A stretch of 55,674 nucleotides of DNA, taken from the IMG/VR virus record IMGVR_UViG_3300032282_003382, positions 1-55,674 of that record; one strand, 5' to 3'. Both the position numbers and the translations under genes were made by a program. The notes below the pieces were generated by a model that saw only the letters and a program-made list of their open reading frames with translations, was not told the DNA's origin and did no database searches. Within the stretch, counting starts at the first letter, position 1; each line of letters starts with the position of its first letter. The DNA comes from a virus. Positions 9,105-48,587 of this stretch are shown one piece after another.

Positions 9105-9446
9105 TTGAAGAAAAATAACCTATACCTCATGGCATTTTACCATAAAGTGCCCAAACATCGTGCAAAAACACAATTAAAGAACTTTGGTGGGAACGACGAC
9201 AACTGGACTTACGAAGAACGAGTAGAATTTGGTAGCAAAATCAAGGACCGTGATTACAACCTAGCTGGGGTTATCCTGGATATTGGTAATGAAAAGACTA
9301 TTAAATGCAGCATGGGACCTAATCGAGAATTCCATAGTTTACTAGGTTATTTTAAAAAGTCTTACCCACAGTACTTTCCACAAGAGCCAGCGCCAGTTAC
9401 TCAGCCTGTATTAGAAGTTAAAAAGGAAAATAATGAGCCTGCTTAA
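9105..9446 (+). CDS. Phage protein of unknown function after gp44
   Basis: The start is TTG 9105, chosen because GGAG (9095-9098) sits six bases upstream. The 113-residue protein has YHKVPKHRAKTQLKNFGG at the start, TYEERVEFGSKIKDRDYNL in the middle, a FHSLLGYFKKSYPQYF segment and a Pro/Glu-rich tail. I believe similar proteins occur as hypothetical genes in marine T4-like phages. T4 has gp62 here (187 residues), but length and motifs give no support for that. The C-terminus overlaps the signal peptide of the next gene by 14 bases. Confidence 0.6.
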   Translation: MKKNNLYLMAFYHKVPKHRAKTQLKNFGGNDDNWTYEERVEFGSKIKDRDYNLAGVILDIGNEKTIKCSMGPNREFHSLLGYFKKSYPQYFPQEPAPVTQPVLEVKKENNEPA

Positions 9447-10359: not shown

Positions 10360-11316
10360 ATGGACAAGACATACAAAATCAAATGGGTAGTAGCACACGA
10401 TCCACTTTATCTGTTTCTCAGAGCTGCTGAGGATTTCAAAGCTGAAGTAAATGCTCGCTGCAATAACTACAAAATTGATGTAGAGATCATGACCCCTACA
10501 CAATATGCAGAGCGTTATAATGATGGTAAGTATGTCCCACGTCAGGAACTATTCAACCTTATGCACTCTGGTGCAGTACAAATGAGTCAGATGGTTACAA
10601 CTACTCTAGCTGCAAAATTTAACAAACAGATGCATGTTTTAGATATGCCATTCTTGTTTAAAGATCATGATCACGCAACTGAAGTATTAGAAGGCAAAGT
10701 AGGAGAGTATCTACTAAACAGTTTTACTCCTGAAAGCAAAGTTAAAGGTTTAGCATTTACATACTCAGGTGGTTTTAGATGTGTTCCAACTAACCAGGAT
10801 GTAAGTAGCCTAGCTGACTTAGTAAATCAACCTATTCGTACTGGTATGAATCCCATGGCTGTAGAAACATTTAAAGCTATTGGTGCTACTCCAGTTCAAA
10901 TGGAACTAGAAGAAATTAATCAGGGTGTATCAGAAGGTCTTATTGTTGGCGGTGAGAGTGCATTTCCTAGAATATACCCATGCAACCAGAATGAGTTTAG
11001 TAAAACAGTTTTAGACACTGGCCATAGTTTATTCTTAACCAGCATTATTGTAAGCACTGATTGGTGGAATACATTACCTGCAGAGCTTAGAGAAATTATT
11101 GCTGATAGTGCAGTAGCAGCAGGCCGAGCAGAACGCCGTAAGAGTATTGAAGATGGTGAAGACACTAAAGTTAAATTAGCCGCAGAAGGTGTTAAGGTAA
11201 TTACATTATCTGATGCTGATAAAGCTGAGTTTAAGGCCAAGACAGAAACAGTATATGCAAAGTTTGCTGACTTCTTTAATCCTGGTCTTGTTGAAGACAT
11301 CAGAAGAGTACATTAA
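10360..11316 (+). CDS. TRAP-type DctP-like solute-binding protein lacking signal peptide
   Basis: The 318 residues follow the DctP family (PF03480) along their whole length: YKIKWVVAHDP as first strand, a KAEV/YKIDVEIMTPTQ second strand, VLDMPFLFKDHDHA (the family L-x-x-P-F-L-F block), GLAFTYSGGFRC, a DLVNQPIRTG hinge with the Arg that binds the substrate carboxylate, and LFLTSIIVSTDWWNTLP. It begins where mature DctP proteins begin: there is no signal peptide and no suitable upstream start. It has its own late promoter and terminator. It may therefore act in the cytoplasm or be packed in the virion, unless an unusual export route exists. No DctQM is present. Confidence 0.8.
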   Translation: MDKTYKIKWVVAHDPLYLFLRAAEDFKAEVNARCNNYKIDVEIMTPTQYAERYNDGKYVPRQELFNLMHSGAVQMSQMVTTTLAAKFNKQMHVLDMPFLFKDHDHATEVLEGKVGEYLLNSFTPESKVKGLAFTYSGGFRCVPTNQDVSSLADLVNQPIRTGMNPMAVETFKAIGATPVQMELEEINQGVSEGLIVGGESAFPRIYPCNQNEFSKTVLDTGHSLFLTSIIVSTDWWNTLPAELREIIADSAVAAGRAERRKSIEDGEDTKVKLAAEGVKVITLSDADKAEFKAKTETVYAKFADFFNPGLVEDIRRVH

Positions 11317-11410: not shown

Positions 11411-12631
11411 TTGAAGCTGGTTTACAAATCGCAAATCATAAATCCTAAATTAGGATTTTATGAGGTAGGCAAAGATATTTTTTATAATAAAGTAGAAGCC
11501 CTAGAGGCAGCTACTAGGTTAAAACTACCATTTGAATCTATACATTGGAATTTTAATGATAATGTATATAAGAAGGTTGATTGGATTACTGAACCAGAAA
11601 TCTCATTAAGATCTCTATATGAAACCAGAGCTAGACAACTTAGAGAAAAATATGATTATATCATAATGAATTGTAGTGGTGGATCTGATTCAAATACTGC
11701 TCTGTTCAGTTTTATAAATCAAGGATTGCATGTTGATGAAATTGTAGTTAGGTATGCTAAAGCAGCCACTCAGGGTAAAAAACCAGATTTTTTTAACTTG
11801 GCACCAGAGAATGAACACAGTGAATATTTTTTTGCTGTAAAACCCATGATTAGATGGTTACAAAAAGTAAGCCCTAAAACAAAAATAACCATACACGATC
11901 ATAGTTTTGATGCATTTAATGATAAAAATTATTTTGACGAAAACTTTATTTACTGGTGTGGAGATTTCCAAAGTCCTGGTTTCATAACTAGATTCCATCA
12001 CAATACTATCATAGAAAATTTAAGAGAATTTGACAAAGATAAAAAAATTGCTATTGTGTTTGGTATAGATAAACCTAAGATTTATCTTAAAGGTGATAAA
12101 CTGCACACTTTTTTCCTAGACGCACCCATGCAACCTGGACTGGTTCCAACATTTACAGATAATACCAACATAACTTCAGAACTGTTTTACTGGACACCAG
12201 ACTTGCCAGAAATAGTCGTTAAACAATGTCACGAACTTAAAAAATGGTTTTTAATACCGCAGAACAGACCTTATATTAGAATTTTAGATTATAACAAAGT
12301 TAAAGATCCACATTATAGGACTTTTTATGAAACAGTACTCAAGGGTGTAATTTATCCTGATTACGATTTGGGCACATTTCAGTGTAATAAACCTGGTAAA
12401 AGCACATTACAAGAATGGGATTTTTGGATTAAAGATTTTAAACACACCAATGGTTATAATATCTGGGTAGATGGACTAAAGCACATTATTCAAAATGTTA
12501 ACCCTTTATATTTTGATAAGACCCCTGAGCTTGAAACTTTTAACTGGAATATAAAAAGAATTCAAAGTAATAATTATTTCATAGGCTCATTTCCACTTCC
12601 ACCTAGTAAACTAATAGAACTAAACTACTGA
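11411..12631 (+). CDS. PP-loop (N-type ATP pyrophosphatase) family protein
   Basis: The ATP-pyrophosphate loop SGGSDS is at residues 89-94, after a hydrophobic strand (YDYIIMNC). PP-loop enzymes adenylate a carboxylate, amide or oxo group and then add a nucleophile, as in asparagine synthetase, GuaA, TilS or QueC. The 406-residue protein is longer than QueC and lacks its zinc cysteine cluster, so it is a different branch. The start is TTG 11411; no ATG lies near it. The gene is flanked by a terminator before and a sigma-70 promoter after, so it stands alone. Two other PP-loop proteins lie at 42.7 and 44.3 kb. Substrate unknown. Confidence 0.65.
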   Translation: MKLVYKSQIINPKLGFYEVGKDIFYNKVEALEAATRLKLPFESIHWNFNDNVYKKVDWITEPEISLRSLYETRARQLREKYDYIIMNCSGGSDSNTALFSFINQGLHVDEIVVRYAKAATQGKKPDFFNLAPENEHSEYFFAVKPMIRWLQKVSPKTKITIHDHSFDAFNDKNYFDENFIYWCGDFQSPGFITRFHHNTIIENLREFDKDKKIAIVFGIDKPKIYLKGDKLHTFFLDAPMQPGLVPTFTDNTNITSELFYWTPDLPEIVVKQCHELKKWFLIPQNRPYIRILDYNKVKDPHYRTFYETVLKGVIYPDYDLGTFQCNKPGKSTLQEWDFWIKDFKHTNGYNIWVDGLKHIIQNVNPLYFDKTPELETFNWNIKRIQSNNYFIGSFPLPPSKLIELNY

Positions 12632-32125: not shown

Positions 32126-32860
32126 ATGAAAGACAACCTTACAGACCTAGTTAACCATACCCATGTATTGGGCAATGTTAGCTTTGTTAAAATTGTTGGC
32201 ACAGACAAAGAAACTGAATTCCAGAGCGTAGCTGATGACAAATCAGTTATTATTCAGGGTAAGTTTAAGAATGTTATCCCTGAGTTCAATGGCGTATTTG
32301 GTATGCCTAACTTAACCAAACTAAACATCATTCTTAACATTCCTGAGTATGATACCGATGCTAGCATTGTAGTTAATACCCAAACTAAGAATGGTGAAAC
32401 TGTACCTAGCGGATTGCGTTTTGAAAACAAAGCCAGCGACTTTAGAAACGATTATCGTTTCATGAGCACTGAAATTGTAAACGAAAAGCTCAAGGATCTA
32501 AAAGCTAAGACTAGTATTAAGTGGAATGTTAGTGTACAACCTAGCGTAGCAAATATTCAGCGTTTTAAATTCCAGAGCCAAGCAAACACAGAAGAGCCTG
32601 TATTTGTAGCCAAGACTGATGGTAGTAAACTAAAGTTTCACTTTGGTGACCCAAGTAGCATGAACGGTGAGTTTGTGTTTGATAATGGTATTTCAGGAAC
32701 ATTGACCAAGGCCTGGCAATTTCCAGTAGCACCAGTAATCAGTATCCTAAACTTGCTAGGCGATAAGACTTTGCAGATTAGTGATCAGGGTGCTCTACAA
32801 ATTATTGTTGACTCAGGCACAGCAGAATACACCTACACACTACCAGCACAAGTTAAATAA
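32126..32860 (+). CDS. 45: Sliding clamp, gp45-like
   Basis: 244 residues, near T4 gp45 (228). VIPEFNGVFGMPNLTKLNIIL resembles the D-L-x-G-F-L-G-x-L-x-L segment of gp45, and the rest shows the alternating strands and pseudo-repeat of clamp folds, ending in TAEYTYTLPAQ. It should trimerise around DNA, be loaded by the gp44 protein, tether the polymerase and, in T4-type phages, activate late promoters through gp33 and gp55, neither of which is recognised here. The stop overlaps the start of the TGT-like gene. Confidence 0.8.
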   Translation: MKDNLTDLVNHTHVLGNVSFVKIVGTDKETEFQSVADDKSVIIQGKFKNVIPEFNGVFGMPNLTKLNIILNIPEYDTDASIVVNTQTKNGETVPSGLRFENKASDFRNDYRFMSTEIVNEKLKDLKAKTSIKWNVSVQPSVANIQRFKFQSQANTEEPVFVAKTDGSKLKFHFGDPSSMNGEFVFDNGISGTLTKAWQFPVAPVISILNLLGDKTLQISDQGALQIIVDSGTAEYTYTLPAQVK

Positions 32861-34494
32861 TGACCATTGCTAAAGACAATCTGACAGCAAGACAGAAGGA
32901 TTATGCTATCTTCCTTCCAGCTATCTCTGGTTTTTATAGCGGCTATGTAGGCAAACAACGACATGAAACCCATGTAGACCCTGCTCGTATCCCTAGCAGG
33001 TTTGAACACGGCATAGAAGGTCTTAACTTCCTAAATCCTGAGCAGGCTTACTTCCCATATCGTTGGGGCCTATATAGTGCTGGCCATGCTAACCTAGATA
33101 CATCTAAGTTTGATGCATCTGAGGATATGATTCGTAATCGTGACAAGGATAGTTTTATTCTTGGTGACTCAGGTGGTTTCCAGATTGGTAAAGGCGTCTG
33201 GGAAGGTGATTGGAGAGCTGGTTCTGGTTGTGCCAAGGCGCATAAAAAGCGTACACAAGTTCTGGACTGGATGGAAAGTTACATGAACTATGGTATGACC
33301 CTAGACGTGCCCGGTTGGGTAGGGCGTACCCCCGCAGGTGTTGCTGCTACTAAGATTAGCAACTATGGCGAAGCTGTTGAAGCCACAAAGTTTAACTTTG
33401 AATATTGGTTAAGGAATCGTAAAGGTAACTGTAAGTTTTTAACTGTGCTACAGGGAGACAACCATAAAGAAGCTGACGAGTGGTACAATGAGATGAAGAA
33501 GTTTTGTGACCCTAAAGTATATCCCAACGATCACTTCAATGGTTGGGCCATGGGATCACAAAATAAATGCGATGCTCATTTAGTAGTAAAGCGGTTAGTA
33601 ACCATGATTTATGATGGATTGTTGGAAACTGGCAAACAGGACTGGATTCACTATTTGGGTACTAGTAAGTTAGAATGGGCTATGATGTTTACAGATATAC
33701 AAAGAGCCATACGCAAGTATCATAATCCTAACTTTACTATTAGCTTTGACTGTGCTAGTCCATTCTTAGCTACTGCTAATGGTCAGGTCTATAACGAAAA
33801 TAGACTAGATAATCGTGGTAAGTGGGCTTACAAGATGATTAAATGTGTAGACGATAAAAAGTATGCTCGTGATAGTCGTATGTTCAGAGATGCTGTTATC
33901 CAGGATGGTATCTACAAGAACTTTATTGATAGTCCTATAATGCAGCGTACTGAGATCAAAGATATTTGCATCTATGGTGCAGGTGTACGCAAGACCGATG
34001 CTGAACTTGGTGGTACTAAGTTTAATGTTAATAACGATGATCATTATCATGTTAAGCCAGATCGTAATAAGATTAATAAAGTAGGACGCACTAGTTGGGA
34101 CAGTTTTAGCTATGCTATCTTAATGGGCCATAACATTCATGCGCACATTAGATCTGTGCAGGATGGTAACGATCTGTATGACAGTGGTGTTATTCCAGCA
34201 GCTCTGGTAAGAGAACAGACTGACAGAAAATATTTCAGAGACTTAGTAGACTCAATCTTTAGTGCGCCTAGTTATGGTGCAGCCATGGCCATAGTTGATC
34301 ATGATTACAATAGTAAATGGTTCATGGATATTCGTGGCAGTAGTGCAAACGGTTATCTGGGTAAGAATGCCAGAAACGCCAATACTATGTTTGATGAACT
34401 ATTTGACATGCAAACTGGTCCACCAGTAGTAAATGAAGATGGTCTAAACCTTGCAAAACTAGATGCTCTGGAAGAAGCAGAAAAGAAGAAATAA
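32860..34494 (+). CDS. TGT/DpdA-like 7-deazaguanine base-exchange enzyme
   Basis: 544 residues with the tRNA-guanine transglycosylase barrel motifs in order: GDSGGFQ (D103, general acid/base), TLDVPGW (D149), TVLQGD (197-200), NGWAMGS (228-233) and SFDCASP (nucleophile D297). The C-x-C-x-x-C zinc motif of tRNA TGTs is not visible. The length and the context with FolE, QueD and QueE fit DpdA, the TGT relative that puts 7-deazaguanine bases into DNA. ATG 32860 shares a base with the clamp stop (TAATG). So it likely modifies guanine in phage DNA during replication, protecting it from restriction. A tRNA target is the alternative. Confidence 0.82.
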   Translation: MTIAKDNLTARQKDYAIFLPAISGFYSGYVGKQRHETHVDPARIPSRFEHGIEGLNFLNPEQAYFPYRWGLYSAGHANLDTSKFDASEDMIRNRDKDSFILGDSGGFQIGKGVWEGDWRAGSGCAKAHKKRTQVLDWMESYMNYGMTLDVPGWVGRTPAGVAATKISNYGEAVEATKFNFEYWLRNRKGNCKFLTVLQGDNHKEADEWYNEMKKFCDPKVYPNDHFNGWAMGSQNKCDAHLVVKRLVTMIYDGLLETGKQDWIHYLGTSKLEWAMMFTDIQRAIRKYHNPNFTISFDCASPFLATANGQVYNENRLDNRGKWAYKMIKCVDDKKYARDSRMFRDAVIQDGIYKNFIDSPIMQRTEIKDICIYGAGVRKTDAELGGTKFNVNNDDHYHVKPDRNKINKVGRTSWDSFSYAILMGHNIHAHIRSVQDGNDLYDSGVIPAALVREQTDRKYFRDLVDSIFSAPSYGAAMAIVDHDYNSKWFMDIRGSSANGYLGKNARNANTMFDELFDMQTGPPVVNEDGLNLAKLDALEEAEKKK

Positions 34495-34996: not shown

Positions 34997-35224
34997 ATGG
35001 CTCATCCAGCTTGGCTTAAGAAGTATTTGAAAATGAAACCTGAAGTATCTGACATCTTCACAGACCTAGAAGAATTTAAGGCGTTTTGTGTAAAGTATGG
35101 TAGAGTATTCAGAGAAGCTGATCTATATAATAATCGCAATGAGACTTACCAGGACTTTAACCGCAGCAAAGCCGGCAAGAATGTTAAAAACGGCTGGTCT
35201 GAAGAACTTAAAAAGATGGCATAA
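34997..35224 (+). CDS. Small protein of unknown function
   Basis: 75 residues, basic, mostly helical (FTDLEEFKAFCVKYGRVFRE, with QDFNRSKAGKNVKNGW). AAGGA site ahead of ATG 34997. Lies between the T-fold and glycosyltransferase genes, overlapping the next start by one base. No motif. Confidence 0.6.
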   Translation: MAHPAWLKKYLKMKPEVSDIFTDLEEFKAFCVKYGRVFREADLYNNRNETYQDFNRSKAGKNVKNGWSEELKKMA

Positions 35225-36297
35225 TGAATACGATTTATATTGTACCCATTGAACCTATTGATCAAAGGTACACTAAACAATGGTATGAAAATATCCCAGA
35301 ATTGTTTAATACAGCCATTTTTAATAATAAACTAAAATACAAAGTAAAAACACTAGATGGTGTTCAGTTAACTGCTGGTACTACATCTGGTGCATTTTTA
35401 GACTTTGGTGCCACTAATGTTTATAAGGCTAGTCAGACACAGCTCATTAGTGAAATGTTTAGCAGAGGTGAGATTGTAGCAGGAGATAAGTTTTTAGTAA
35501 CTGATGCCTGGAATTTTGTAATCACTGCTATCAGATATATGTCTGACTTGTTAGAGATTCCTGTAGAGATACATGGTATCTGGCATGCAGGTGCTTATGA
35601 CCCAAGTGATATTTTAGGTTATAAAATGTCTAAACCCTGGCCCTGGCATACTGAACTTGGTTGGTTTCATGCTTGTACTACTAACTATTATGCTACTCAT
35701 TTTCATAGAGATATGTTTATGCGTAATTTAGAAATTGACAATGATATCTATGGTTACAAGGCCATAGTAAGCGGACAGCCACATAATCCCATTATTGCTC
35801 AGTGTGAAAAATATGTTTCCAAAACTAAGAAAGAAATGGTTATTTGGCCACATCGTTATAATGATGACAAGCAGCCTAATATCATAGAAGATCTTTCAAA
35901 GCGATTAACTCCAGAAGTAGTTATTACTCAGAAAATGAATCTAAACAAGGATAAGTTTTATGAGACCATGGGTGATGCTAGTGTAGTGTTTAGTTGCAGC
36001 CTACATGAGAACTTGGGTATTAGTCAGATGGAAGGTACTTTGGCTGGAGCCATTCCAGTAGTTCCAGATCGTTGTAGTTACTCAGAAATGTATGTGCCAG
36101 AATTTAAATATCCAAGTATCTGGACCGAAAGTTTCGACAATTATAAGAAATACAAGGCTGATATTATTGACTTTATTTCTGACAAAGTGTACAATAGATC
36201 TAAATATATCACAGCACTAGCATATCAGACAGATATCTTAAAGAACAAATATCTGAATGCTGATGTAATGATTAACAATATTTTAGGATTAAAATGA
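35224..36297 (+). CDS. GT-B type glycosyltransferase-like protein
   Basis: 357 residues. The C-terminal half carries the retaining GT-B pattern: VFSCSLHENLGISQMEGTLAGAIPVVPDRCSYSEMY, with the family's E-x-x-G-x-x-x-x-E-A-x-A-x-G-x-P-V-V block. The N-terminal half has IYIVPIEP and LEIPVEIHGIWHAG as the first Rossmann strands. It likely transfers a hexose from a nucleotide sugar. Sitting in one unit with folE and the T-fold gene and downstream of the DpdA-like gene, it could sugar-coat modified DNA as T4 does with hydroxymethylcytosine, or act on a surface glycan. The acceptor is not known. Confidence 0.7.
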   Translation: MNTIYIVPIEPIDQRYTKQWYENIPELFNTAIFNNKLKYKVKTLDGVQLTAGTTSGAFLDFGATNVYKASQTQLISEMFSRGEIVAGDKFLVTDAWNFVITAIRYMSDLLEIPVEIHGIWHAGAYDPSDILGYKMSKPWPWHTELGWFHACTTNYYATHFHRDMFMRNLEIDNDIYGYKAIVSGQPHNPIIAQCEKYVSKTKKEMVIWPHRYNDDKQPNIIEDLSKRLTPEVVITQKMNLNKDKFYETMGDASVVFSCSLHENLGISQMEGTLAGAIPVVPDRCSYSEMYVPEFKYPSIWTESFDNYKKYKADIIDFISDKVYNRSKYITALAYQTDILKNKYLNADVMINNILGLK

Positions 36298-37004
36298 CAG
36301 ACACAAGCAAACATCTATCACAAGTATTACGCGAGCGCATGAAGTCCGATGGTAAAAGGTTCTGGGCCGGAGATAACATCAGCGACTACATAGCTGAATC
36401 AGACAAAGAACACTTGATCTCTGAAGCCACAGAAGCATTTGAAAAGGTTCTGGATGTATTACTAATTGATCGCGAAAACGATCCTAACAGTAAAGGCACA
36501 GCCAAACGATTGGCCAAGATGTACTTCAATGAGATTATGTCAGGACGCTATGATCCGGCACCTAATGCTACATCGTTTCCCAACAATAATGATGATGGTG
36601 CTCAACCCTATAACGGTATGATAGTTGTCAGGGCAGAACTAAAGAGTATGTGTAGTCATCATCATCAACCAGTTACTGGTACAGCCTATATTGGTGTTAT
36701 TCCCAATGGCAGAGTAATTGGACTTAGCAAGTATATTAGAATTGCGCAATGGTGTGCTCGCAGAGGTACTTTGCAAGAACAATTATGTAATGATATTGCC
36801 AACAATATTGGTATTGCTACTGGTAGTGGAAATCTTGGTGTATATGTACAAGCTACTCATGGTTGTTGTGAAAACCGTGGTGTAATGGCTCGTAGTAGTC
36901 TTACACAAACCACAGTATTACGTGGTGCATTTAATGACGATCCTGGTACCAAGAAAGAATTTTTCGACAACATTAAACTACAACAAGATTTTGCTCCTCG
37001 TTAA
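36294..37004 (+). CDS. folE: GTP cyclohydrolase I
   Basis: 236 residues. The FolE core is clear: SMCSHHHQPVTG with the zinc ligands Cys120 and His123, PNGRVIGLSKYIRI, the RGTLQEQLCNDIAN helix, and VQATHGCCENRGVMARSS with the third zinc Cys (191 or 192). The reaction opens GTP to 7,8-dihydroneopterin triphosphate, first step of both folate and 7-deazaguanine synthesis. With QueD and QueE in the same window the deazaguanine branch is favoured. ATGA overlap with the glycosyltransferase gene. No fusion or gap seen. Confidence 0.95.
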   Translation: MTDTSKHLSQVLRERMKSDGKRFWAGDNISDYIAESDKEHLISEATEAFEKVLDVLLIDRENDPNSKGTAKRLAKMYFNEIMSGRYDPAPNATSFPNNNDDGAQPYNGMIVVRAELKSMCSHHHQPVTGTAYIGVIPNGRVIGLSKYIRIAQWCARRGTLQEQLCNDIANNIGIATGSGNLGVYVQATHGCCENRGVMARSSLTQTTVLRGAFNDDPGTKKEFFDNIKLQQDFAPR

Positions 37005-39383: not shown

Positions 39384-40484
39384 ATGGAAGATAATAAGCA
39401 CGAAACACTTACACAACAATATAGCACCTGGGGCGATAAGTTATTACAACATACTGATGTTTTACATAGCATTCAGTTTAAAAGGCAATTTAAACCCATA
39501 ACTGTTCAGCTGAGTCCAGTAGAAGCTTGTAGTAGCGGCTGTCCATTTTGTAGTGTTGCTGAGAGACCATTAAAGTCATATCTGCCCTGGGCTGATCTTA
39601 AAAAAGTACTAGAGGATTTTAAATCCCTGGGTGCCAAAAGCATAGAGATAACTGGTGGCGGTGAACCTTTATTATACAGGGATAAAGAAGCCAAGACTGA
39701 CATCAATTCCATTGTAGAATATGCTTCAGAGCTAGGATATGACATTGGTATCATAACCAACACTTTAAAACTAAATCGTATTAAACCAGAAAACTTTGAT
39801 AAAATTAAATGGATTCGCATAAGCCTAATTAAACTGGATGAAGGTTATAATCCAGAAGATTATGATTTTGCTGGATTCCCCAAGTCTAAAATTGGTCTAA
39901 GCTATATCATTTATGAAGGTACTCAAGGAACTGGTACTAGACTAGGCATGAGTTATAAGCCTACTGATGTTGAGACCATAAACAGAATTGCCAAAGTAGT
40001 TGAATTACATCCTGAAATTAAATTCGTTAGAATTGCTGGTAATTGTTTAATCAAAGGTAATAATGCTCTGATCCGAGACAAGTTTAAAAGAGTAATAGAT
40101 GCCATAGACACCAATAACAAGATATTCATTAAAGATATTGGTGATGATGACAGTCCCTTTGATCAGGGCTGTTATGTGGGCATGGTTAGGCCTTATGTAG
40201 CACCTGATCCCACTGGTACTGGAAAATACAAAGTTTACACCTGTACTAGTCATGTTCTGAACAAGCAAAATTATGATTTAGACTATGCCCTGTGTGATGT
40301 AGATAATATTAAGTCAACCTGGGAAGCATTAAATAAGAATTATGCAGACCAGGGTTATCCATATCAGATAAAAAACAACTGCGGTACAAATTGGACTGAA
40401 TCATGTAACTATTGTTACTACAAGTTCAATAACAAGATACTGCATACTGTTGCCCAGGAAATGCCTGATAAAAATTTTGCTTAA
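39384..40484 (+). CDS. Radical SAM protein with SPASM-like C-terminus
   Basis: 366 residues. The [4Fe-4S] motif CSSGCPFC gives C49, C53 and C56 (CX3CX2C), followed by SIEITGGGEPLLY (SAM-binding GGE). The C-terminus has further Cys (CYVGM, YTCTSHV, and NCGTNWTESCNYCYY) like the auxiliary clusters of SPASM proteins. Such enzymes generate a 5'-deoxyadenosyl radical to change peptides or small molecules. No obvious peptide substrate is next to it. The methyltransferase gene starts on its last base. Confidence 0.85.
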   Translation: MEDNKHETLTQQYSTWGDKLLQHTDVLHSIQFKRQFKPITVQLSPVEACSSGCPFCSVAERPLKSYLPWADLKKVLEDFKSLGAKSIEITGGGEPLLYRDKEAKTDINSIVEYASELGYDIGIITNTLKLNRIKPENFDKIKWIRISLIKLDEGYNPEDYDFAGFPKSKIGLSYIIYEGTQGTGTRLGMSYKPTDVETINRIAKVVELHPEIKFVRIAGNCLIKGNNALIRDKFKRVIDAIDTNNKIFIKDIGDDDSPFDQGCYVGMVRPYVAPDPTGTGKYKVYTCTSHVLNKQNYDLDYALCDVDNIKSTWEALNKNYADQGYPYQIKNNCGTNWTESCNYCYYKFNNKILHTVAQEMPDKNFA

Positions 40485-41130: not shown

Positions 41131-41595
41131 ATGCTATTAAAGTTATTGGACAAGCTGGGCCGTAAGCGTATTGTAATGGATAGAGTAAACAATGAACCTT
41201 ATCTGGAGCGGTATTATGTTTTTCTCAAGGACCGAGGAGTATTTCCATTTAATGTCTTTCTACACAAGTTTCTTAAGTCAGATCCCGATGACTTGCATGA
41301 TCATCCTTGGCCTTATGCCACGCTGATACTTAAAGGCGGTTACTGGGAATGGATGCCTAAATTCGATGATACCGGTAATAAAATATCTGAGTACAAAGTT
41401 TGGCGTGGACCTGGACATTTTAGGATTAGTAGTGCCAAAAGTTTTCACAGAGTAGAATTAGAGCCAGGTGTAACAGCCTGGAGTTTGTTTATGCCAGGCC
41501 CTAAGCAAAGAGAATGGGGATTTCTTAGCAAAGGTGTCTGGATTCAATGGGAAAAATATCTTGAACTTAGACGGCTTAATGCTCAAAAAATATAA
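41131..41595 (+). CDS. Cupin-fold protein
   Basis: 154 residues. DDLHDHPWPYATLILKGGYWEW fits cupin motif 1 (H-x-H-x-n-G-G-x-x-E) with metal ligands H, H and E, and SAKSFHRVEL supplies the His of motif 2. It is most like metal-dependent small cupins that oxidise or isomerise small molecules or bind sugars. Strong AAGGAG site. First gene of a run of overlapping genes ending at 45150, so it probably acts in the same pathway. Confidence 0.75.
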   Translation: MLLKLLDKLGRKRIVMDRVNNEPYLERYYVFLKDRGVFPFNVFLHKFLKSDPDDLHDHPWPYATLILKGGYWEWMPKFDDTGNKISEYKVWRGPGHFRISSAKSFHRVELEPGVTAWSLFMPGPKQREWGFLSKGVWIQWEKYLELRRLNAQKI

Positions 41596-41803
41596 ACATA
41601 TCTTTTTTGACATAGATAAACCTTTGACTCCTAATGATAAACACTATACACTAATCTACAACTATACATCGCCCAAAAGACATTGTAGAGTCTGGTATGA
41701 CGTTAGATACAAAGAAGAAGCTTTTGTATTTTGGTTTGCTAACATGAAAAACATTTACAACAATAATTTGAAAGACTATTATGACACAGAAACTAACTAT
41801 TGA
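41579..41803 (+). CDS. Small protein of unknown function
   Basis: ATG 41579 overlaps the end of the cupin gene by 17 bases. 74 residues, basic and aromatic (LKKYKHIFFDIDKPLTPND, HCRVWYDVRYKEEAFVFWF). The start FFDID resembles a HAD-like first strand, but the protein is far too short for that fold. Its end overlaps the PRTase gene by 23 bases. Possibly a remnant or a small regulator. Confidence 0.5.
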   Translation: MLKKYKHIFFDIDKPLTPNDKHYTLIYNYTSPKRHCRVWYDVRYKEEAFVFWFANMKNIYNNNLKDYYDTETNY

Positions 41804-42281
41804 TCACAAGCAGTTCCAGAGCATTGTAGCTGCAATTTGTAGAGACATTGTTCTGGACGATTGGCGTCCTGATTATATTGTGGGTATTACTCGTGGTGGG
41901 TTACTACCCGCAGTTCTTATAAGTCATTATTTGGATGTACCTATGCACACTCTTAAGGTAAGCCTGCGTGATACTTCTGATACTGAAAGTAATTGCTGGA
42001 TGGCCGAGGATGCGTTCAATGGTAAAAACATTCTGATTGTTGATGATATTAACGATAGTGGTGCTACCATTAATTGGATTATGTCAGACTGGCAAGCCAG
42101 TGCATATCCTAAAGATTTGAAATGGAATGATATCTGGGGTAACAATGTCAGAGTAGCTGTTATTGTAGACAACTTATCAAGCCAGTCTAACCTTAGTGCT
42201 CATTATGTAGGTATGGAAGTAAACAAGGCAGAGAATGATGTCTGGATTGATTTTCCATATGAAGACTGGTGGATGAAATGA
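41781..42281 (+). CDS. Purine-type phosphoribosyltransferase
   Basis: 166 residues. The PRPP loop is ILIVDDINDSGAT (family V-D-D-(I/V)-x-x-(S/T)-G-x-T), with YIVGITRGGLLPAVLIS as the first PRTase strand and phosphate loop. This is the size and layout of xanthine/hypoxanthine PRTases. It would join or split a base and PRPP. In this context a 7-deazaguanine or another modified base is an attractive substrate, since the pathway intermediates here are free bases. That link is inference. Confidence 0.8.
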   Translation: MTQKLTIDHKQFQSIVAAICRDIVLDDWRPDYIVGITRGGLLPAVLISHYLDVPMHTLKVSLRDTSDTESNCWMAEDAFNGKNILIVDDINDSGATINWIMSDWQASAYPKDLKWNDIWGNNVRVAVIVDNLSSQSNLSAHYVGMEVNKAENDVWIDFPYEDWWMK

Positions 42282-42652
42282 CAGCCCTGATTGATGCTCA
42301 ACTATCAGGATATGCACCCTGGACTGATGAAGTAGAAGAACTATCAGACTTTCATGTAGCTGTATACAAAGATAAATTTGCAGTATCTCCAGGCCATTTA
42401 TTGTTTGTGCCTAGACACAATACTCCAGAAGTTATACAAGATGCGTTCTATAGTGCCTATATGCATGGTTGCCGTTTAAAACTCAGCGAACAATGTGATG
42501 GGTTTAATATAGGCATGAACACTGGAGACGCCGCAGGACAAACAGTTATGTACCCCCATATACATCTAATTCCCAGATACCGAGGTGATGTAGAGAATCC
42601 CCGTGGTGGTGTTCGTAATGTTATACCAGGCAAAGGTGATTACAAAGCATAA
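42278..42652 (+). CDS. HIT-family nucleotide hydrolase-like protein
   Basis: ATG 42278 overlaps the PRTase stop (ATGA). 124 residues; GHLLFVPRHN and QTVMYPHIHLIPRYRGD are the HIT blocks. The triad reads Y-P-H-I-H instead of H-x-H-x-H: the first His is Tyr, while the middle (nucleophilic) His and the last His remain. HIT proteins cut nucleoside phosphates from amines, sugars or other nucleotides. It lies between a PRTase and a PP-loop enzyme, so it may remove AMP from an adenylated intermediate. Confidence 0.78.
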   Translation: MTALIDAQLSGYAPWTDEVEELSDFHVAVYKDKFAVSPGHLLFVPRHNTPEVIQDAFYSAYMHGCRLKLSEQCDGFNIGMNTGDAAGQTVMYPHIHLIPRYRGDVENPRGGVRNVIPGKGDYKA

Positions 42653-43473
42653 TGCCTGGTATAGACAATTGGTTAAACCTTAACCTAATTCCTGGAGACA
42701 CAAGCAATCTAACAAAACAGTTAGCATGCCAGTTCAATCTGGGCACAGTTAAAAAGTTATCTATAAACGATGCTGCTGATTATACGGCAGATATCATATA
42801 TCAAAAGTATAAGGATCTGTACTTAAGTTTTAGTGGTGGGCTAGATAGTATGTTTGTGGCCAATGTCTTATATAGAAATAAAATACCATTTAAACCTATT
42901 ATTTTTGATTGGTATTGGCAAGAACCTGAGTGCTGGCATGCCTATGACTGGTGTGAAAAGCATCAGATTGAACCCATAGTTTATACTATAACTAAAGATA
43001 CTGAACAGGAATTTTTAGAAAAAATACTTAAGTATGCTTTGCAAGTTAAAACTCCAGCTAAGATTGGTTATATACCCATAATCCTGGCAGAAACATTACC
43101 TATTACTGGCAGGCTCATTACAGGTTATGGTGATCCGTTTTATATTTCAGTTAGTTATTCTGAGCCCATGGGCGATGTTTTTGAAATATCAGAACACGAC
43201 TATTATATGGATTTAGTTTACGGGTCAGATCATCCAGGTGGATTTTTAAGTTATACTCCAGAAATGTTTTTTAGCCTGGTGCGAAATATTCCAAATCATC
43301 TTAATACACAACAAGCCAAGGCTGAAATTTATGGATTAGAGTTCAGGCCAAAGTTTAATAATATTAATGTATTACCCTGGGGTAAATATCAAACACTCAG
43401 AGACAAGATAAATAAACCGTTTGAACTTACCGTACAACGATACCATAAAACTTCATTACTTAAATTGTTATGA
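42652..43473 (+). CDS. PP-loop ATPase, paralogue A of pair
   Basis: 273 residues. The PP-loop SGGLDS is at 61-66, after LYLSF. The start MPGIDNW, the loop position and AYDWCEKHQIEPIVY match the protein at 44272 (MPGRNNW, 61-66, ALDWCKQRNINPVVI), so the two are paralogues. PP-loop enzymes use ATP to adenylate a substrate group and then add N or S. QueC, the missing step of the preQ0 pathway, is a PP-loop enzyme, but its Cys-rich zinc site is absent here. TAATG overlap with the HIT gene. Confidence 0.75.
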   Translation: MPGIDNWLNLNLIPGDTSNLTKQLACQFNLGTVKKLSINDAADYTADIIYQKYKDLYLSFSGGLDSMFVANVLYRNKIPFKPIIFDWYWQEPECWHAYDWCEKHQIEPIVYTITKDTEQEFLEKILKYALQVKTPAKIGYIPIILAETLPITGRLITGYGDPFYISVSYSEPMGDVFEISEHDYYMDLVYGSDHPGGFLSYTPEMFFSLVRNIPNHLNTQQAKAEIYGLEFRPKFNNINVLPWGKYQTLRDKINKPFELTVQRYHKTSLLKLL

Positions 43474-44282
43474 CACCAGTAATTTTTACGCATAAAGATA
43501 TATTTAAAAACAAAAACTATTTTAGCACATACAATTATATTCTGGATAGGAATTTTAAGTATTCAACAAATATTTGTCCACACCGTGGCTATGCTTTATC
43601 CAGACCCACCTACGCATTCAATGATTTAAGTTGTGGATTACATGGTTGGTCCTGGGACTTAAATGGAAAAGCCAGTCAACCCAATCAATCTAATTTAGTT
43701 CAGAAACAAGCCACCTTAGGGAAAAGTGGATTTATATTCAAGGACTTTGAAGAGCCAAATACTCCCTGGGTACATGAGCTAGGTGCTGAAGATTTAGAGT
43801 ATAGCCATAGTTTTTATAGAAAATGTCCTGGTGACTGGCGCTGGCAGATGGAGATGCATATTGATTTAGCTCATGTGCCTTACATACATCCTACATTGTC
43901 TAGCTACATAGACATAACTAAAATTAAAACAGAAGCTGGTGAAAATTATATTGCACAGTATCATGATCATGGCTGGTGGTTGTTTGTATATCCTGGTATA
44001 CATATAGAATATGAGCCAGGTAAAATTTACATTTCTGAAATGATACCCAATAAAACTGGATTGGGCTATGAGATGTTTGGGCATTATTTGTTTGATCCAT
44101 TACTTTCAGAATCAGAAAAAAATAATTTCTGCTTTGTGAATGAAACTACTCTGGATGAAGACATAGCAGCAGTAGCTAAAATGAAAATGGATTTTGTGAA
44201 ACCTAAGCCAACCACAGACCCATTGGAAGTATATAATCTACACTGGTATGATTTTTATAAAGAAAATTATCATGCCAGGTAG
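43470..44282 (+). CDS. Rieske non-haem iron oxygenase
   Basis: 270 residues. The Rieske site is CPHRG then CGLHGW: C36, H38, C55, H58 (C-x-H-x16-C-x2-H). The catalytic iron site is DLAHVPYIH: D132, H135, H140, the DxxHxxxxH pattern of ring-hydroxylating oxygenases. The third ligand may be an Asp in TTLDEDIAAV near 230. It is shorter than typical alpha subunits (about 400). It would hydroxylate or demethylate a small substrate using electrons from a host reductase. It lies between two PP-loop paralogues with overlaps on both sides, so they likely share a substrate. Confidence 0.85.
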   Translation: MTPVIFTHKDIFKNKNYFSTYNYILDRNFKYSTNICPHRGYALSRPTYAFNDLSCGLHGWSWDLNGKASQPNQSNLVQKQATLGKSGFIFKDFEEPNTPWVHELGAEDLEYSHSFYRKCPGDWRWQMEMHIDLAHVPYIHPTLSSYIDITKIKTEAGENYIAQYHDHGWWLFVYPGIHIEYEPGKIYISEMIPNKTGLGYEMFGHYLFDPLLSESEKNNFCFVNETTLDEDIAAVAKMKMDFVKPKPTTDPLEVYNLHWYDFYKENYHAR

Positions 44283-45150
44283 GAATAATTGGGTAAAACT
44301 TTCTTATGACGGTAAACCTCAAAGAAGTTTGTCTGAAAGTTTTATAATAACATACACAGAAAAAACTGATCGCATTATTAGTTTTAAACAGGCATGTACT
44401 GAATCAGCTCAGGAAATCTTTGACACTTATAAGAATGTCTATGTTAGTATGAGTGGAGGTTCTGATAGTGAATGTGTAGCAAACAGTTTTTATAATGCTG
44501 GATTGCCCTTTACCCCTGTAATATTAAAGATAGAAGATTATAACAGACATGACATTGTATATGCTCTGGACTGGTGTAAACAACGAAACATTAATCCTGT
44601 AGTTATCGAGCATGAAGTACAAAGCTGGGTATCTACTATAGCTGCATTACAAAAATTAGACCGTAACAGAATGTTATGGGGCATGGGCAATGTTTGGTTG
44701 GCTGATCATGTTAAACAATTAGGTGGTTATTTAGTAACTGGCTGCTGTGACCTACAACTCATACCTGATCCTGATTTAGAATTAGAATATTCTAAGCTAA
44801 ATGCCAAGTTTCAGGGTCAGTATGTACACTGGGAATGTGACTATGCTGTGGATCATCACGACCCAGGATATCATCCCAATGGATTCTTTATTTGGAAACC
44901 TGAAATGTTGCTGAGCTTCATAAATGAACGCAATCCAGCTTGGACTAATGCAGAAGCAAAATGGAATGTATATAAGGTTGGTCCCAGACCTAAATATGTG
45001 GGCATGGAAAATATTGACTTTGAAACAATTTATAGTACAATACGAAGTCCAGTTACAATTAAAAAGATAGTAGGCAAACACGATTGGATATTAGCTGGAA
45101 CTAATGAAACTTTATGGCAAGATATCTACGCTGGGAAAAAGCCAGCATAA
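44272..45150 (+). CDS. PP-loop ATPase, paralogue B of pair
   Basis: The start ATG 44272 is chosen over 44248 because it gives MPGRNNW, matching the paralogue's MPGIDNW, and overlaps the Rieske stop. 292 residues; SGGSDS at 61-66, exactly the position in paralogue A. After the common first 110 residues the two diverge: B has YLVTGCCDLQLIP and DYAVDHHDPGYHPNGFF, A has LITGYGDPF and YGSDHPGGFLSY. The shared core suggests the same chemistry on different or successive substrates. It is the last gene before queD. Confidence 0.78.
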   Translation: MPGRNNWVKLSYDGKPQRSLSESFIITYTEKTDRIISFKQACTESAQEIFDTYKNVYVSMSGGSDSECVANSFYNAGLPFTPVILKIEDYNRHDIVYALDWCKQRNINPVVIEHEVQSWVSTIAALQKLDRNRMLWGMGNVWLADHVKQLGGYLVTGCCDLQLIPDPDLELEYSKLNAKFQGQYVHWECDYAVDHHDPGYHPNGFFIWKPEMLLSFINERNPAWTNAEAKWNVYKVGPRPKYVGMENIDFETIYSTIRSPVTIKKIVGKHDWILAGTNETLWQDIYAGKKPA

Positions 45151-45231: not shown

Positions 45232-45711
45232 ATGGCAAAATACATTTCAACAAAAACTTATAAACAAATTGGCCCAGTGGCCTATCGTCAATGGCGTGCT
45301 GATAGTCATTGCAATCTAGTTCATGGATACGCACTTAGTTTCCACTTTGAATTTGAATGTGATACCCTGGACGCTCGTAATTGGTGCATGGACTTCGGTG
45401 GGCTTCGTCCACTAAAAGATAAACTAGAGGAATGGTTCGACCATACTCTATTGGTTGCACAGGATGATCCTCATCGTGATGCACTACTAAACTTAGGTAA
45501 ACTGGGCATAGCCAAGATCACCGAAGTGGAAAAAACTGGCTGCGAAGGCTTGGCTGACTTCCTGTACGAATATATCAACACCATATTCTTCCCCATGTAT
45601 GGAACAGAAGAAGCCAAGCGTGTGTGGTGTTGCAAAGTAGAAGTCAGAGAGACCGATGCTAACATGGCCATGCGTGTGGGTCATAGAGAAGACAACGAGT
45701 TTAGTGATTAA
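45232..45711 (+). CDS. queD: QueD, 6-carboxy-tetrahydropterin synthase
   Basis: 159 residues. The T-fold blocks are RQWRADSHCNLVHGYALSFH (zinc His26 and His31, catalytic Cys27), NWCMDFGGLRPLKDKLEEW, FDHTLL (D70, H71 of the catalytic dyad), GCEGLADFLYEYI and KVEVRETDANM. The usual H-G-H reads H-G-Y, so one zinc His of the classic family is replaced; I recall this Q-W-x-A-x-S-H-C...H-G-Y variant from marine QueD-like proteins. It converts dihydroneopterin triphosphate to 6-carboxytetrahydropterin, the substrate of QueE. TAATG overlap with the next gene. Confidence 0.88.
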   Translation: MAKYISTKTYKQIGPVAYRQWRADSHCNLVHGYALSFHFEFECDTLDARNWCMDFGGLRPLKDKLEEWFDHTLLVAQDDPHRDALLNLGKLGIAKITEVEKTGCEGLADFLYEYINTIFFPMYGTEEAKRVWCCKVEVRETDANMAMRVGHREDNEFSD

Positions 45712-46568
45712 TGAATGCGCTGGACATAAAATGGTTGCATGTTGAACCTAGTTCAAGATGTAATGCTTATTGTCCAGCGTGTCCCAGAAATAATGGATCT
45801 ACTCAAAAACAAGAATTTATCCAGACTGATTTAGATACAGAAAAATTTGAAGTTGTTGTAAAATCATTGTACAATTTAGAAACTATCCAGTTTTGTGGAA
45901 ATTTAGGTGAACCTGTAATAGCACATAATTTTTTAGACTTAATACACATAGCTAAAAAACATTGTACAAAAATACAAATCCACACAAACGGCAGTTTAAG
46001 AAATATTACTTGGTGGAAAGAATTAGCTGCGCTGTTACAAGATATAGAACATAATGTTTGGTTTGGTATTGATGGCATTAATGACATCCATGCAATTTAT
46101 AGACAAGGCACTGATTACACAAAGATAATAGACAATGCTAGTAGTTTTATTAATAATGGTGGACATGCTACCTGGCAGTTTATACCCTTTGATCATAATA
46201 AACATCAAATTTTAGAATGTATGAGATTAAGTCAGCAACTGGGATTTAAAAACTTTAAATTTGTAAAATCATATAGACAACAACAACAAGTGAATAACAT
46301 TCATTGGCGAACTAAAGAAAATGTTAGTATTAATACACCTAACGAAGTTATTCACTTATTAAGAAAAGAACAAAATATAGAAGCTATGTCAGTCCAAGAA
46401 AAAGACTGTATGCATCTATCTTATCCCAGTGTGTACTTATCAGCACTGGGTAAACTGAGCACTTGTTGTTACTTTGGTAATATTCAATGGTATGATGATG
46501 TGTACCAACTATTGGAGAGTAAATTAGATTTAACTCACCATCGTTGTTTGGAATCATGTGGGGAATAG
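45711..46568 (+). CDS. Radical SAM protein with SPASM-like C-terminus
   Basis: 285 residues. CNAYCPAC gives C17, C21 and C24 (CX3CX2C). FCGNLGEPVIAHNF replaces the GGE region with a G-N-x-G-E-P form typical of SPASM/twitch enzymes, and the C-terminus has KDCMH, STCCYFG and HRCLESCGE for auxiliary clusters. Many such proteins modify peptides or cofactors. It lies between queD and the deazaguanine transporter, so a role in tailoring the base is possible. Substrate unknown. Confidence 0.82.
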   Translation: MNALDIKWLHVEPSSRCNAYCPACPRNNGSTQKQEFIQTDLDTEKFEVVVKSLYNLETIQFCGNLGEPVIAHNFLDLIHIAKKHCTKIQIHTNGSLRNITWWKELAALLQDIEHNVWFGIDGINDIHAIYRQGTDYTKIIDNASSFINNGGHATWQFIPFDHNKHQILECMRLSQQLGFKNFKFVKSYRQQQQVNNIHWRTKENVSINTPNEVIHLLRKEQNIEAMSVQEKDCMHLSYPSVYLSALGKLSTCCYFGNIQWYDDVYQLLESKLDLTHHRCLESCGE

Positions 46569-46594: not shown

Positions 46595-47206
46595 ATGTTA
46601 GATAAGTTATTACCTGGTATTGATAAAGCTCTAGCTACTAAGCTAGTGATTTTTCATACCTTCATTATTGCACTAAGTAATTACCTGGTAAGCATGAAGT
46701 TTGAGTTATTGGGATTCCCACTAACTTACGCTGCATTCACCTTCCCACTAGTCGTCGTTGCAACTGACTTGACTGTTAGGATGGTAGGTAAGAGCCTGGG
46801 CAGAGCAGTAGTAGGACTTAGTTTTATCCCAGCAATTTGTGCCAGTATCTGGGTAGTTATAGCGTCTGGTGCTCCAGAAAGCGTTGCACTTAGAATTGGT
46901 GTTGCTAGTGGTGTAGCATACCTAATCAGTACATTGCTTGATGTTTATGTGTTCCAGTGGTTCAGAGAGAAGTATAGCTCTTGGTGGATTGCACCAACCC
47001 TGAGTAGTGTAGTTACTAGCATTATTGATACCTACGCATTCTTTGGTACGGCGTTCCATAATAGTGCCAACGAGTTTATGGCAGCAAACTGGCAAGTAGT
47101 AGCTACTAACCAGATCATTACTAAGATTGTTGTTAGCTTACTTGTTATTCTGCCAGCTTATGGTGTATTGCTCAATTATTTGCAAAAGAAGATTGAAGCT
47201 GAATAA
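46595..47206 (+). CDS. yhhQ: YhhQ-type queuosine precursor transporter
   Basis: 203 residues with about six membrane helices (VIFHTFIIALSNYLVSM, YAAFTFPLVVVATDLTVRM, FIPAICASIWVVIASG, ASGVAYLISTLLDVYVFQW, SVVTSIIDTYAFFGTAF, IVVSLLVILPAYGVLL). The segment F-P-L-V-V-V-A-T-D-L and the D-V-Y-x-F and S-x-x-x-D-T-x-x-F-x-x-A-F blocks are those of the QPT/YhhQ family (DUF165), which imports preQ0 or preQ1. It is placed in the host inner membrane. AAGGAG site. With QueD/E next to it, the phage can both make and import 7-deazaguanine bases. Confidence 0.9.
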   Translation: MLDKLLPGIDKALATKLVIFHTFIIALSNYLVSMKFELLGFPLTYAAFTFPLVVVATDLTVRMVGKSLGRAVVGLSFIPAICASIWVVIASGAPESVALRIGVASGVAYLISTLLDVYVFQWFREKYSSWWIAPTLSSVVTSIIDTYAFFGTAFHNSANEFMAANWQVVATNQIITKIVVSLLVILPAYGVLLNYLQKKIEAE

Positions 47207-47411: not shown

Positions 47412-47746
47412 AAGCACAAAAACCAGCCGAGGGAATCCTCAAACAACATGATTGGGGCAAATCTAAGGTCTATCAGGTCATCTGCGATTGTGGCCAATCT
47501 GACCACACCCACACAGTATGGGTAGAAGCAGATGATTGTAATGTATCTGTACAAATTTATGTAGATGTTAAAAGCCCATCTTGGAGCATGAATCGTTTTA
47601 AACAAATCTGGACATTGTTAACTACAGGTTATCTACGGCACGAAACTGCGTTATCCATGTCTAATCAACAAGCTCTGAATTATGCAGAAGCATTAAAGTC
47701 TGCCATCAAAGATGTTGAAAACTTTAGAAAGAAAACCAATGTCTAA
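47408..47746 (+). CDS. Phage protein of unknown function
   Basis: ATG 47408 overlaps the preceding stop (ATGA). 112 residues. YQVICDCGQSDHTHTVWVEADD has C-x-C and H-x-H, which may hold zinc; the middle is beta-rich (VSVQIYVDVKSP) and the end is helical. I recall a similar D-W-x-x-x-x-Y-x-V-x-C-x-C-G pattern in marine T4-like phages. Its last eight bases overlap queE. Confidence 0.6.
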   Translation: MKAQKPAEGILKQHDWGKSKVYQVICDCGQSDHTHTVWVEADDCNVSVQIYVDVKSPSWSMNRFKQIWTLLTTGYLRHETALSMSNQQALNYAEALKSAIKDVENFRKKTNV

Positions 47747-48587
47747 AATCAAAGTAGCAGAACTATTTTATAGCATACAAGGAGAAGGTAGGTACATGGG
47801 TGTGCCTAGTGTGTTCTTGCGTGTATTTGGATGTAACTTTAAATGTGCCGGTTTTGGCATGCCCCGAGGAGAATTCAGCAATGAAGCTATCAATATTGAC
47901 CCTGCTAACTATACCGACTACAAATCCCTTCCTCTTGTTAGCACAGGTTGTGATAGTTACGCTAGTTGGGATCCTCGCTTTAAGCATCTATCTCCCGTTT
48001 TGGATACTGATGCGATTGCCCTTGCTATTGTGGATACGCTACCGCACAAGGAATGGCGCGACGAACATCTGGTGATCACAGGAGGTGAACCTTTATTAGG
48101 ATGGCAACGAGCATATCCAGACTTGCTGCGGCATCCTAAAATGGCAGATCTTAAAGAGATCACTTTCGAAACTAACGGTACTCAACCACTAACTGATGAG
48201 CTGGCTGATTACTTGCTAGAATGGTTGATGCCACATCCAGATTATACCAGAGAAATCACATTCAGTGTTAGTGCAAAACTACCATGCTCAGGTGAGAAGT
48301 GGTCAGATGCCATTAAGCCCGAGGTAGTAGCAGGTTATCAGCAGCTAGGTTATGTGTATCTCAAGTTTGTGGTGGCCACAGATCGTGATGTGCAAGATGC
48401 TATCATGGCCGCGCATGAGTTCAAGGAGGCAGGTGTGGATGTGCCTGTGTATCTAATGCCCGTAGGTGGTGTGGAAAGTGTTTATAGTCTGAACAATCGC
48501 ACAGTGGCACACAAGGCCATGGAACTGGGTTATCGTTACAGCGATAGACTTCAGGTCCCTTTGTTTAAAAATGCCTGGGGTACTTGA
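47739..48587 (+). CDS. queE: QueE, 7-carboxy-7-deazaguanine synthase (unusual Cys spacing)
   Basis: ATG 47739 is inside the previous gene's end. 282 residues: LFYSIQGEGRYMGVPSVFLR is the QueE start, VITGGEPLLG the SAM site, ITFETNGTQPL and FSVSAKLPCSGEK follow, and YLKFVVAT and MPVGG close the barrel. The Fe-S motif is C32-x3-C36, but the third Cys is C71 (STGCDSYASW), 34 residues on instead of 2, an insertion of about 32 residues. It converts 6-carboxytetrahydropterin to 7-carboxy-7-deazaguanine. GC-richer than neighbours. Last gene of the modification region. Confidence 0.92.
   Translation: MSKIKVAELFYSIQGEGRYMGVPSVFLRVFGCNFKCAGFGMPRGEFSNEAINIDPANYTDYKSLPLVSTGCDSYASWDPRFKHLSPVLDTDAIALAIVDTLPHKEWRDEHLVITGGEPLLGWQRAYPDLLRHPKMADLKEITFETNGTQPLTDELADYLLEWLMPHPDYTREITFSVSAKLPCSGEKWSDAIKPEVVAGYQQLGYVYLKFVVATDRDVQDAIMAAHEFKEAGVDVPVYLMPVGGVESVYSLNNRTVAHKAMELGYRYSDRLQVPLFKNAWGT

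Follow-up and report, generated by a model that had tools for sequence, protein, structure and literature searches.

What would a phage make with two PP-loop proteins and a Rieske oxygenase, encoded by overlapping genes in the midst of 7-deazaguanine genes? The question is raised by IMG/VR virus record IMGVR_UViG_3300032282_003382, whose 55,674 bases were analysed as a whole and are called the window below. Since relatives reach 240-374 kb, the window is probably incomplete. The cassette lies at 42652-45150, and PP1 and PP2 are our shorthand for its first and second PP-loop proteins. Working from the letters only, the original prediction proposed that it could amidate and oxidise a 7-deazaguanine base, giving a new DNA modification, or make another small molecule. 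The latter half turned out to be the better supported. We favour, with a probability of roughly 0.52, a small-molecule module whose product is not the DNA base: the cassette probably has a small-molecule product of its own, because elsewhere it is found among fatty-acid desaturases and acetyltransferases.

The three genes are the following, c0 being the PP-loop family of PP1 and PP2.

42652-43473, + strand: PP-loop protein 1 (PP1), 273 aa, SGGLDS at residues 61-66, family c0 clade I; AlphaFold pLDDT 92.5; Foldseek matches TilS, carbapenam synthetase and NAD synthetase.

43470-44282, + strand: Rieske non-heme-iron oxygenase, 270 aa, C36xH38/C55xxH58, D132xxH135xxxxH140 and conserved D231; AlphaFold pLDDT 94.8; Foldseek match CntA, E 6e-14.

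44272-45150, + strand: PP-loop protein 2 (PP2), 292 aa from its MPG start, SGGSDSE, family c0 clade I; alternative start at 44248.

The overlap of all three genes was confirmed. An ATGA at 43470-43473 joins the PP1 stop to the Rieske start, and the MPG start of PP2 lies 11 bases inside the Rieske gene, with an upstream ATG at 44248 as the alternative. These overlapping start and stop codons suggest co-translation. Both PP-loop proteins indeed start with MPG and carry the loop, SGG[L/S]DS, at residues 61-66. They had been called paralogous, and they do belong to one family, but as distant members (26% identity between PP1 and PP2).

The signature of c0 is SGGxDSE...GxG[ED]...TPE...RPKxxGxE, and the Glu usual after the loop is replaced by Met in PP1. 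No Pfam or NCBIfam family matched the PP-loop proteins over its cut-off, and no match was found among 50,697 reference phages. A PHROG label of 'PAPS reductase' was dropped, the match being weak and confined to the surroundings of the loop. The best profile match of PP1 was NAD synthetase (NadE, 2e-8). Against the PDB, Foldseek matched PP1 to TilS (1e-5), carbapenam synthetase (CPS, 1e-4), beta-lactam synthetase, LarE, TtuA and NAD synthetase. With TilS, NAD synthetase, the carbapenam and beta-lactam synthetases and asparagine synthetase, the proteins share the HUP/PP-loop core. Unlike AsnB, CPS and beta-lactam synthetase, they have a c0 signature of their own and no N-terminal Ntn-type glutaminase domain, PP1 and PP2 being just 273 and 292 aa long with the loop at residue 61.

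QueC acts in the canonical case on 7-carboxy-7-deazaguanine (CDG). Like QueC, Cap9 and QatC (PF06508), the proteins are PP-loop ATP pyrophosphatases with SGGxDS, and the cassette lies beside queD and queE. The motifs listed for QueC are a C(x)8CxxCxxC zinc site, YxQxHxxE, VPxRN and YPDC (PMC13329287); PP1 and PP2 lack them and have a different C-terminal half. A pattern search found neither the zinc site nor the other three motifs in PP1, PP2 or the window's third PP-loop protein (described below), and PF06508 had no match over its cut-off in the window. The c0 proteins of other phages match PF06508 weakly over their N-terminal third, some just above the cut-off. Among viral models, PP1 came closest to uncharacterised proteins from uncultured phages and to 'asparagine synthase' proteins; QueC ranked far lower. 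An identity with QueC was rejected on motifs, profile and fold. The structural comparison with QueC and amidotransferases that had been proposed gave a synthetase-like core (TilS, CPS, NAD synthetase) and not a QueC-like protein.

The Rieske protein has the full C-H-C-H cluster and the DxxHxxxxH iron site read from its sequence earlier. The [2Fe-2S] ligands C36PH38 and C55GLH58 are invariant among 34 homologues, as are D132, H135, H140 and D231, the last being the putative third iron ligand. Its AlphaFold model matched the Rieske alpha-subunit fold, with CntA, stachydrine demethylase and SxtT as top Foldseek matches. Both iron sites and the overall fold are common to it and to CntA and stachydrine demethylase (TM 0.66-0.73), whereas it differs in length (about 270 aa against 391), in sequence (16% identity) and in being paired with a PP-loop enzyme. 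Close relatives were found here only in phage contigs. Among the 50,697 reference phages, two Acinetobacter phage records gave the only match, a weak one at 23%. When 84,980 bacterial and archaeal genomes were scanned for patterns of the Rieske alignment, an approach that reaches near relatives only, no relative came up. We regard the gene identities, catalytic motifs and folds as established.

A Rieske alignment search gave 38 viral loci; the 41 close homologues in them all carry the cluster motif. Linkage and neighbours were counted on 34 non-redundant Rieske genes from the 38 viral contigs. A c0 gene lay at most four genes from the Rieske gene in 33/34 and directly adjoined it in 27/34; the pair occurs in both orientations, sometimes convergent and overlapping. 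On eight large contigs, a PP-loop gene was within three genes for 9/9 Rieske genes, where chance would give 2-15% per gene. The phage lineage of the window was sampled by similarity to the window, and scans of large collections reach near relatives only. From the lineage, 23 contigs (28-374 kb) were chosen through the polymerase or DpdA gene, regardless of the cassette. The Rieske profile found nothing in them, this being one of two empty Rieske searches run without a positive control; only two of them, L136 and L139, have a full-length c0. Because of the 33/34 linkage, and because contigs picked blind to the cassette mostly have neither gene, we conclude that Rieske and c0 belong together.

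For 26 of the 34 Rieske genes, no deazaguanine gene was present within five genes. Their neighbours were instead a PP-loop protein of a second family, c3 (18/26), a fatty-acid desaturase (17/26), TctC (14/26), GNATs (11/26), a GNAT-like family (5/26) and 2-oxoglutarate (2OG) oxygenases (10/26). The window has one member of c3, remote from the cassette:

11411-12631, + strand: third PP-loop protein, 406 aa, SGGSDS at 89, family c3; in many other phages c3 adjoins the Rieske gene.

In many phages the gene that immediately precedes the Rieske gene is c3, so the order PP-loop/Rieske/PP-loop recurs with different partners. A homologue of S-adenosylmethionine decarboxylase (AdoMetDC, SpeD) adjoins the Rieske gene in several loci. 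In two that lie directly beside it (L025 10819-11175, L045 10843-11235), the likely pyruvoyl-forming Ser is followed by Asn instead of the His usual in AdoMetDC. Some phage relatives of SpeD decarboxylate ornithine or arginine (PMC10407285, PMC9992855), so that an amine partner is conceivable, though speculative. Judged by this distribution, the cassette is evidently mobile, widespread in aquatic phage contigs, and moves between lineages; the linkage and the mobility we take as established.

Bacteria hold the same family. In a further genome scan, c0 turned up in an assembly from the Bdellovibrionaceae, beside GNATs, AspH-like oxygenases and two fatty-acid desaturases, and c0 was present in 24 of 141 Bdellovibrionales genomes, often in several copies. 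In the loci read around these copies, AspH-like 2OG enzymes, desaturases, GNATs and B12-type radical-SAM enzymes recur. All but the last also accompany the phage cassettes that lie outside the operon, so that phage and bacterial members of the family have partners in common. The bacterial clusters differ in belonging to clade II, whereas the window PP-loops are clade I, and the loci read contained neither a Rieske gene nor anything that matched the QueD, FolE, QueE or DpdA profiles. Two Bdellovibrionales proteins of about 800 aa (L368 2481-4958, L371 5194-7587) match the c0 profile over part of their length, and the one in L368 also matches a GNAT domain.

We propose that the core of the module is the c0 PP-loop ATP pyrophosphatase together with the short Rieske non-heme-iron oxygenase. 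The c0 enzyme would adenylate a carboxylate (or carbonyl) of a small molecule, releasing pyrophosphate, and an amine would displace AMP to give an amide, lactam or amidine, making c0 an AMP-forming C-N ligase. The Rieske oxygenase would hydroxylate or oxidatively N-dealkylate the ligation product or its precursor, with electrons from a ferredoxin/reductase; no obvious gene for one adjoins the Rieske gene, and a host protein could serve. The two diverged PP-loop copies suggest two related ligations. We infer the type of reaction, and a product separate from the DNA base. The module would not belong to the deazaguanine pathway by origin, and would have settled between the PRTase/HIT genes and queD inside a core operon, where the resident branch might act on carboxy-deazaguanine.

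The following genes lie in and around that operon.

32860-34494, + strand: DpdA-like 7-deazaguanine DNA transglycosylase candidate, from sequence features and operon context; no NCBIfam match.

35224-36297, + strand: probable GT-B-type glycosyltransferase, read from sequence and relatives; no family search made.

36294-37004, + strand: FolE GTP cyclohydrolase I, NCBIfam FolE 3e-39.

39384-40484 and 45711-46568: two radical-SAM proteins, in the same region as the cassette.

41131-41595: protein matching a phage 'cysteine dioxygenase' family, in the same region as the cassette.

41781-42281, + strand: phosphoribosyltransferase (PRTase)-domain protein, Pfam PF00156 1e-17, part of the dpdA region.

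42269-42652, + strand: HIT-domain protein, Pfam PF01230 6e-9, whose stop shares 1 base, at 42652, with the PP1 start.

45232-45711, + strand: QueD-like 6-carboxytetrahydropterin synthase, Pfam PTPS 6e-15, PHROG 2389 3e-39.

46595-47206, + strand: YhhQ-type queuosine precursor transporter, NCBIfam 1e-52.

47712-48587, likely start 47739, + strand: QueE-like 7-carboxy-7-deazaguanine synthase, radical SAM, NCBIfam QueE models 1e-12, under their cut-offs.

The Pfam matches agree with the PRTase and HIT genes upstream and the queD downstream that had been read earlier; dpdA, folE, queE and the third PP-loop protein had been passed over. The DpdA, glycosyltransferase and QueE assignments are putative, drawn from similarity and context. 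The HIT gene is kept in relatives without a Rieske gene (L136, L140), and the PRTase gene is also present in cassette-free relatives and in the cultured Pseudomonas phage Paride. As in the phage dpdA systems of Hutinet et al. 2019 (PMC6884629), dpdA, folE, queD and queE lie in one region; unlike them, the predicted window system has no queC (the enzyme from CDG to preQ0) and has extra PP-loop and Rieske genes. QueC was not found in the window, in G003 (240 kb) or in G030 (354 kb), ArcS, QueF and Gat-QueC not being searched separately. Deazaguanine systems without QueC may still insert CDG itself.

Whether the cassette keeps company with deazaguanine genes across genomes had been put forward as a way to refute the deazaguanine half of the prediction. 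The comparison was made: on Rieske contigs of at least 100 kb, QueD was present in 8/8 and DpdA in 6/8. Wherever a lineage locus leaves space of at least 3.5 kb, the polymerase gene is followed by DpdA, with L234 as the one exception, and dpdA-folE-queD-queE belongs to the core of the phage lineage, cassette or not. Co-occurrence at the genome level is therefore no evidence, and the comparison was uninformative. Two statements were dropped on the way: that the cassette is mostly in phages without deazaguanine genes, which rested on 20-kb loci and gave way to the 8/8 for QueD, and that co-occurrence supports a deazaguanine function, given the near-universal DpdA after the polymerase gene in the lineage.

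Where the cassette lies says more than its presence in a genome. The window and five relatives have the Rieske and c0 genes between folE (or the PRTase gene) and queD or queE. On the Rieske tree, the label 'in deazaguanine interval' changes 7 times for 8 genes, against a shuffled mean of 7.3, with 251/500 shuffles as low; at least 5 of the changes are forced by well-supported branches. Several facts weigh against the small-molecule reading. All 15 interval copies of c0 fall into one deep clade (100/100) with only seven others, mostly T4-like; c0 without Rieske also occupies the interval in L136 and L139; and desaturase, GNAT, TctC and c3 PP-loop are each 0/8 in interval cassettes. PP-loops restricted to one clade and lacking their usual partners look like an adaptation to the local operon. 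Compared with solved enzymes, PP1 reaches low Foldseek TM-scores (0.3-0.45), and nothing beyond the nucleotide-binding core is truly common to them. Viral contigs, G023 (discussed below) included, are fragments. The clade of interval c0 copies has lost a Trp, and also the G.E that follows RPK, residues nearly fixed in the other clade. With the Rieske tree intermixed and the interval c0 copies in one clade, the Rieske gene is a general part and the operon PP-loops are a specialised branch.

The position in the interval, the PP-loop-only versions in L136 and L139, the single clade and the missing partners are what a deazaguanine hypermodification would draw on, in which clade I PP-loops take QueC's place, adenylate the carboxylate of CDG and join it to an amine or ammonia, the Rieske protein oxidises the side group and DpdA inserts the base. 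FolE, QueD and QueE would make CDG, no QueC was found on the three contigs named above, and a SpeD homologue, a possible amine source, lies in the same interval of L002. The chemistry first predicted does fit the folds, and the pathway adjoins; the substrate claim is what lacks support, 26/34 Rieske genes being away from such genes. The PP-loops have none of the QueC motifs and a fold nearer the asparagine-synthase-like phage proteins, L140-L142, L144, L145, L151 and L154 have a dpdA-folE-queD-queE operon with no cassette inside, and the Rieske tree gives no sign of specialisation to the operon. The T4-like contig G023 has c3-Rieske-c0 and no QueD or DpdA, QueD was not found in 17 terminase relatives (up to 169 kb), and the T4-like group with the triad, which keeps clade I PP-loops, appears to lack the pathway. 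We therefore hold this hypermodification possible but rather doubtful. Its most explicit version, in which PP1 and PP2 conjugate the CDG carboxylate to amines (perhaps via a SpeD-type decarboxylase), the adduct is oxidised by the Rieske protein, and DpdA places the resulting amide-linked, oxidised 7-deazaguanine, so far undescribed as a base, in phage DNA, seems unlikely.

It could also be that the folE-queD gap is an insertion hot spot and the cassette passenger cargo, functionally unlinked to its neighbours. The contents of the gap vary between relatives, unrelated genes included, and on the tree Rieske genes enter and leave it freely. However, the recurrent genes of the gap are limited to c0, Rieske, SpeD and a small membrane-hydroxylase-like one, the usual cargo being 0/8, the operon PP-loops are clade-specific, and the overlapping codons point to co-translation; we find passenger cargo improbable. 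Least credible is that the PP-loops are LarE-, TtuA- or MnmA-like sulfurtransferases that thiolate a base, tRNA or cofactor while the Rieske protein acts separately. LarE and TtuA are among the Foldseek matches of PP1, and there are weak MnmA/TtuA profile matches, but the only cysteines of PP1 are Cys 26, 94 and 101, a pattern search found neither CxxC nor a three-Cys motif in PP2, and the c0 signature (SGGxDSE, TPE, RPK) has no catalytic cysteine pair.

Some observations concern the operon rather than the cassette. In Paride, polymerase, DpdA-like, glycosyltransferase-like, PRTase-like and QueE genes follow in the same order, with no cassette in that stretch. Paride_0115 (OR805295.1; L385 7995-9617), a 'hypothetical protein' of PA5oct-like Pseudomonas phages, is 40% identical to the window DpdA-like protein. 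With these DpdA-like, glycosyltransferase-like, PRTase-like and QueE genes in a row, the cultured PA5oct-like phages may carry an unnoticed deazaguanine DNA modification. The glycosyltransferase gene adjoins the dpdA region in several cassette-free relatives as well as in Paride, so glycosylation of the modified base is a possibility. In the QueE-like protein (47739-48587), CxxxC occupies residues 32-36 and no further cysteine comes before residue 71; an insertion of about 30 residues seems to have displaced the third radical-SAM cysteine. At this position, other members of the lineage carry another type of QueE. A QueC-like protein of about 210 aa (L001 13982-14614) has C(x)7CxxCxxC without the canonical QueC motifs, and is also found in G010, G014, G015 and G033, cassette phages in which it is remote from the deazaguanine genes. 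Elsewhere in the window, genes at 9433-10338 and 10360-11316 resemble TctC-type and TRAP-type solute-binding proteins.

The original prediction knew of no described phage pathway with this set, and the literature searched agrees: searches for Rieske, PP-loop and phage, and for Rieske auxiliary metabolic genes, gave no such pair in phages. The c0 proteins are an undescribed PP-loop family, and the module itself, found in large aquatic phages, is undescribed. Bacterial chromosomal relatives of c0 with the same partner enzymes offer a way into its chemistry. If the cassette acts on deazaguanine, it would give a new class of DNA base; otherwise, it indicates a small-molecule pathway as yet unknown, which phages have repeatedly re-acquired.

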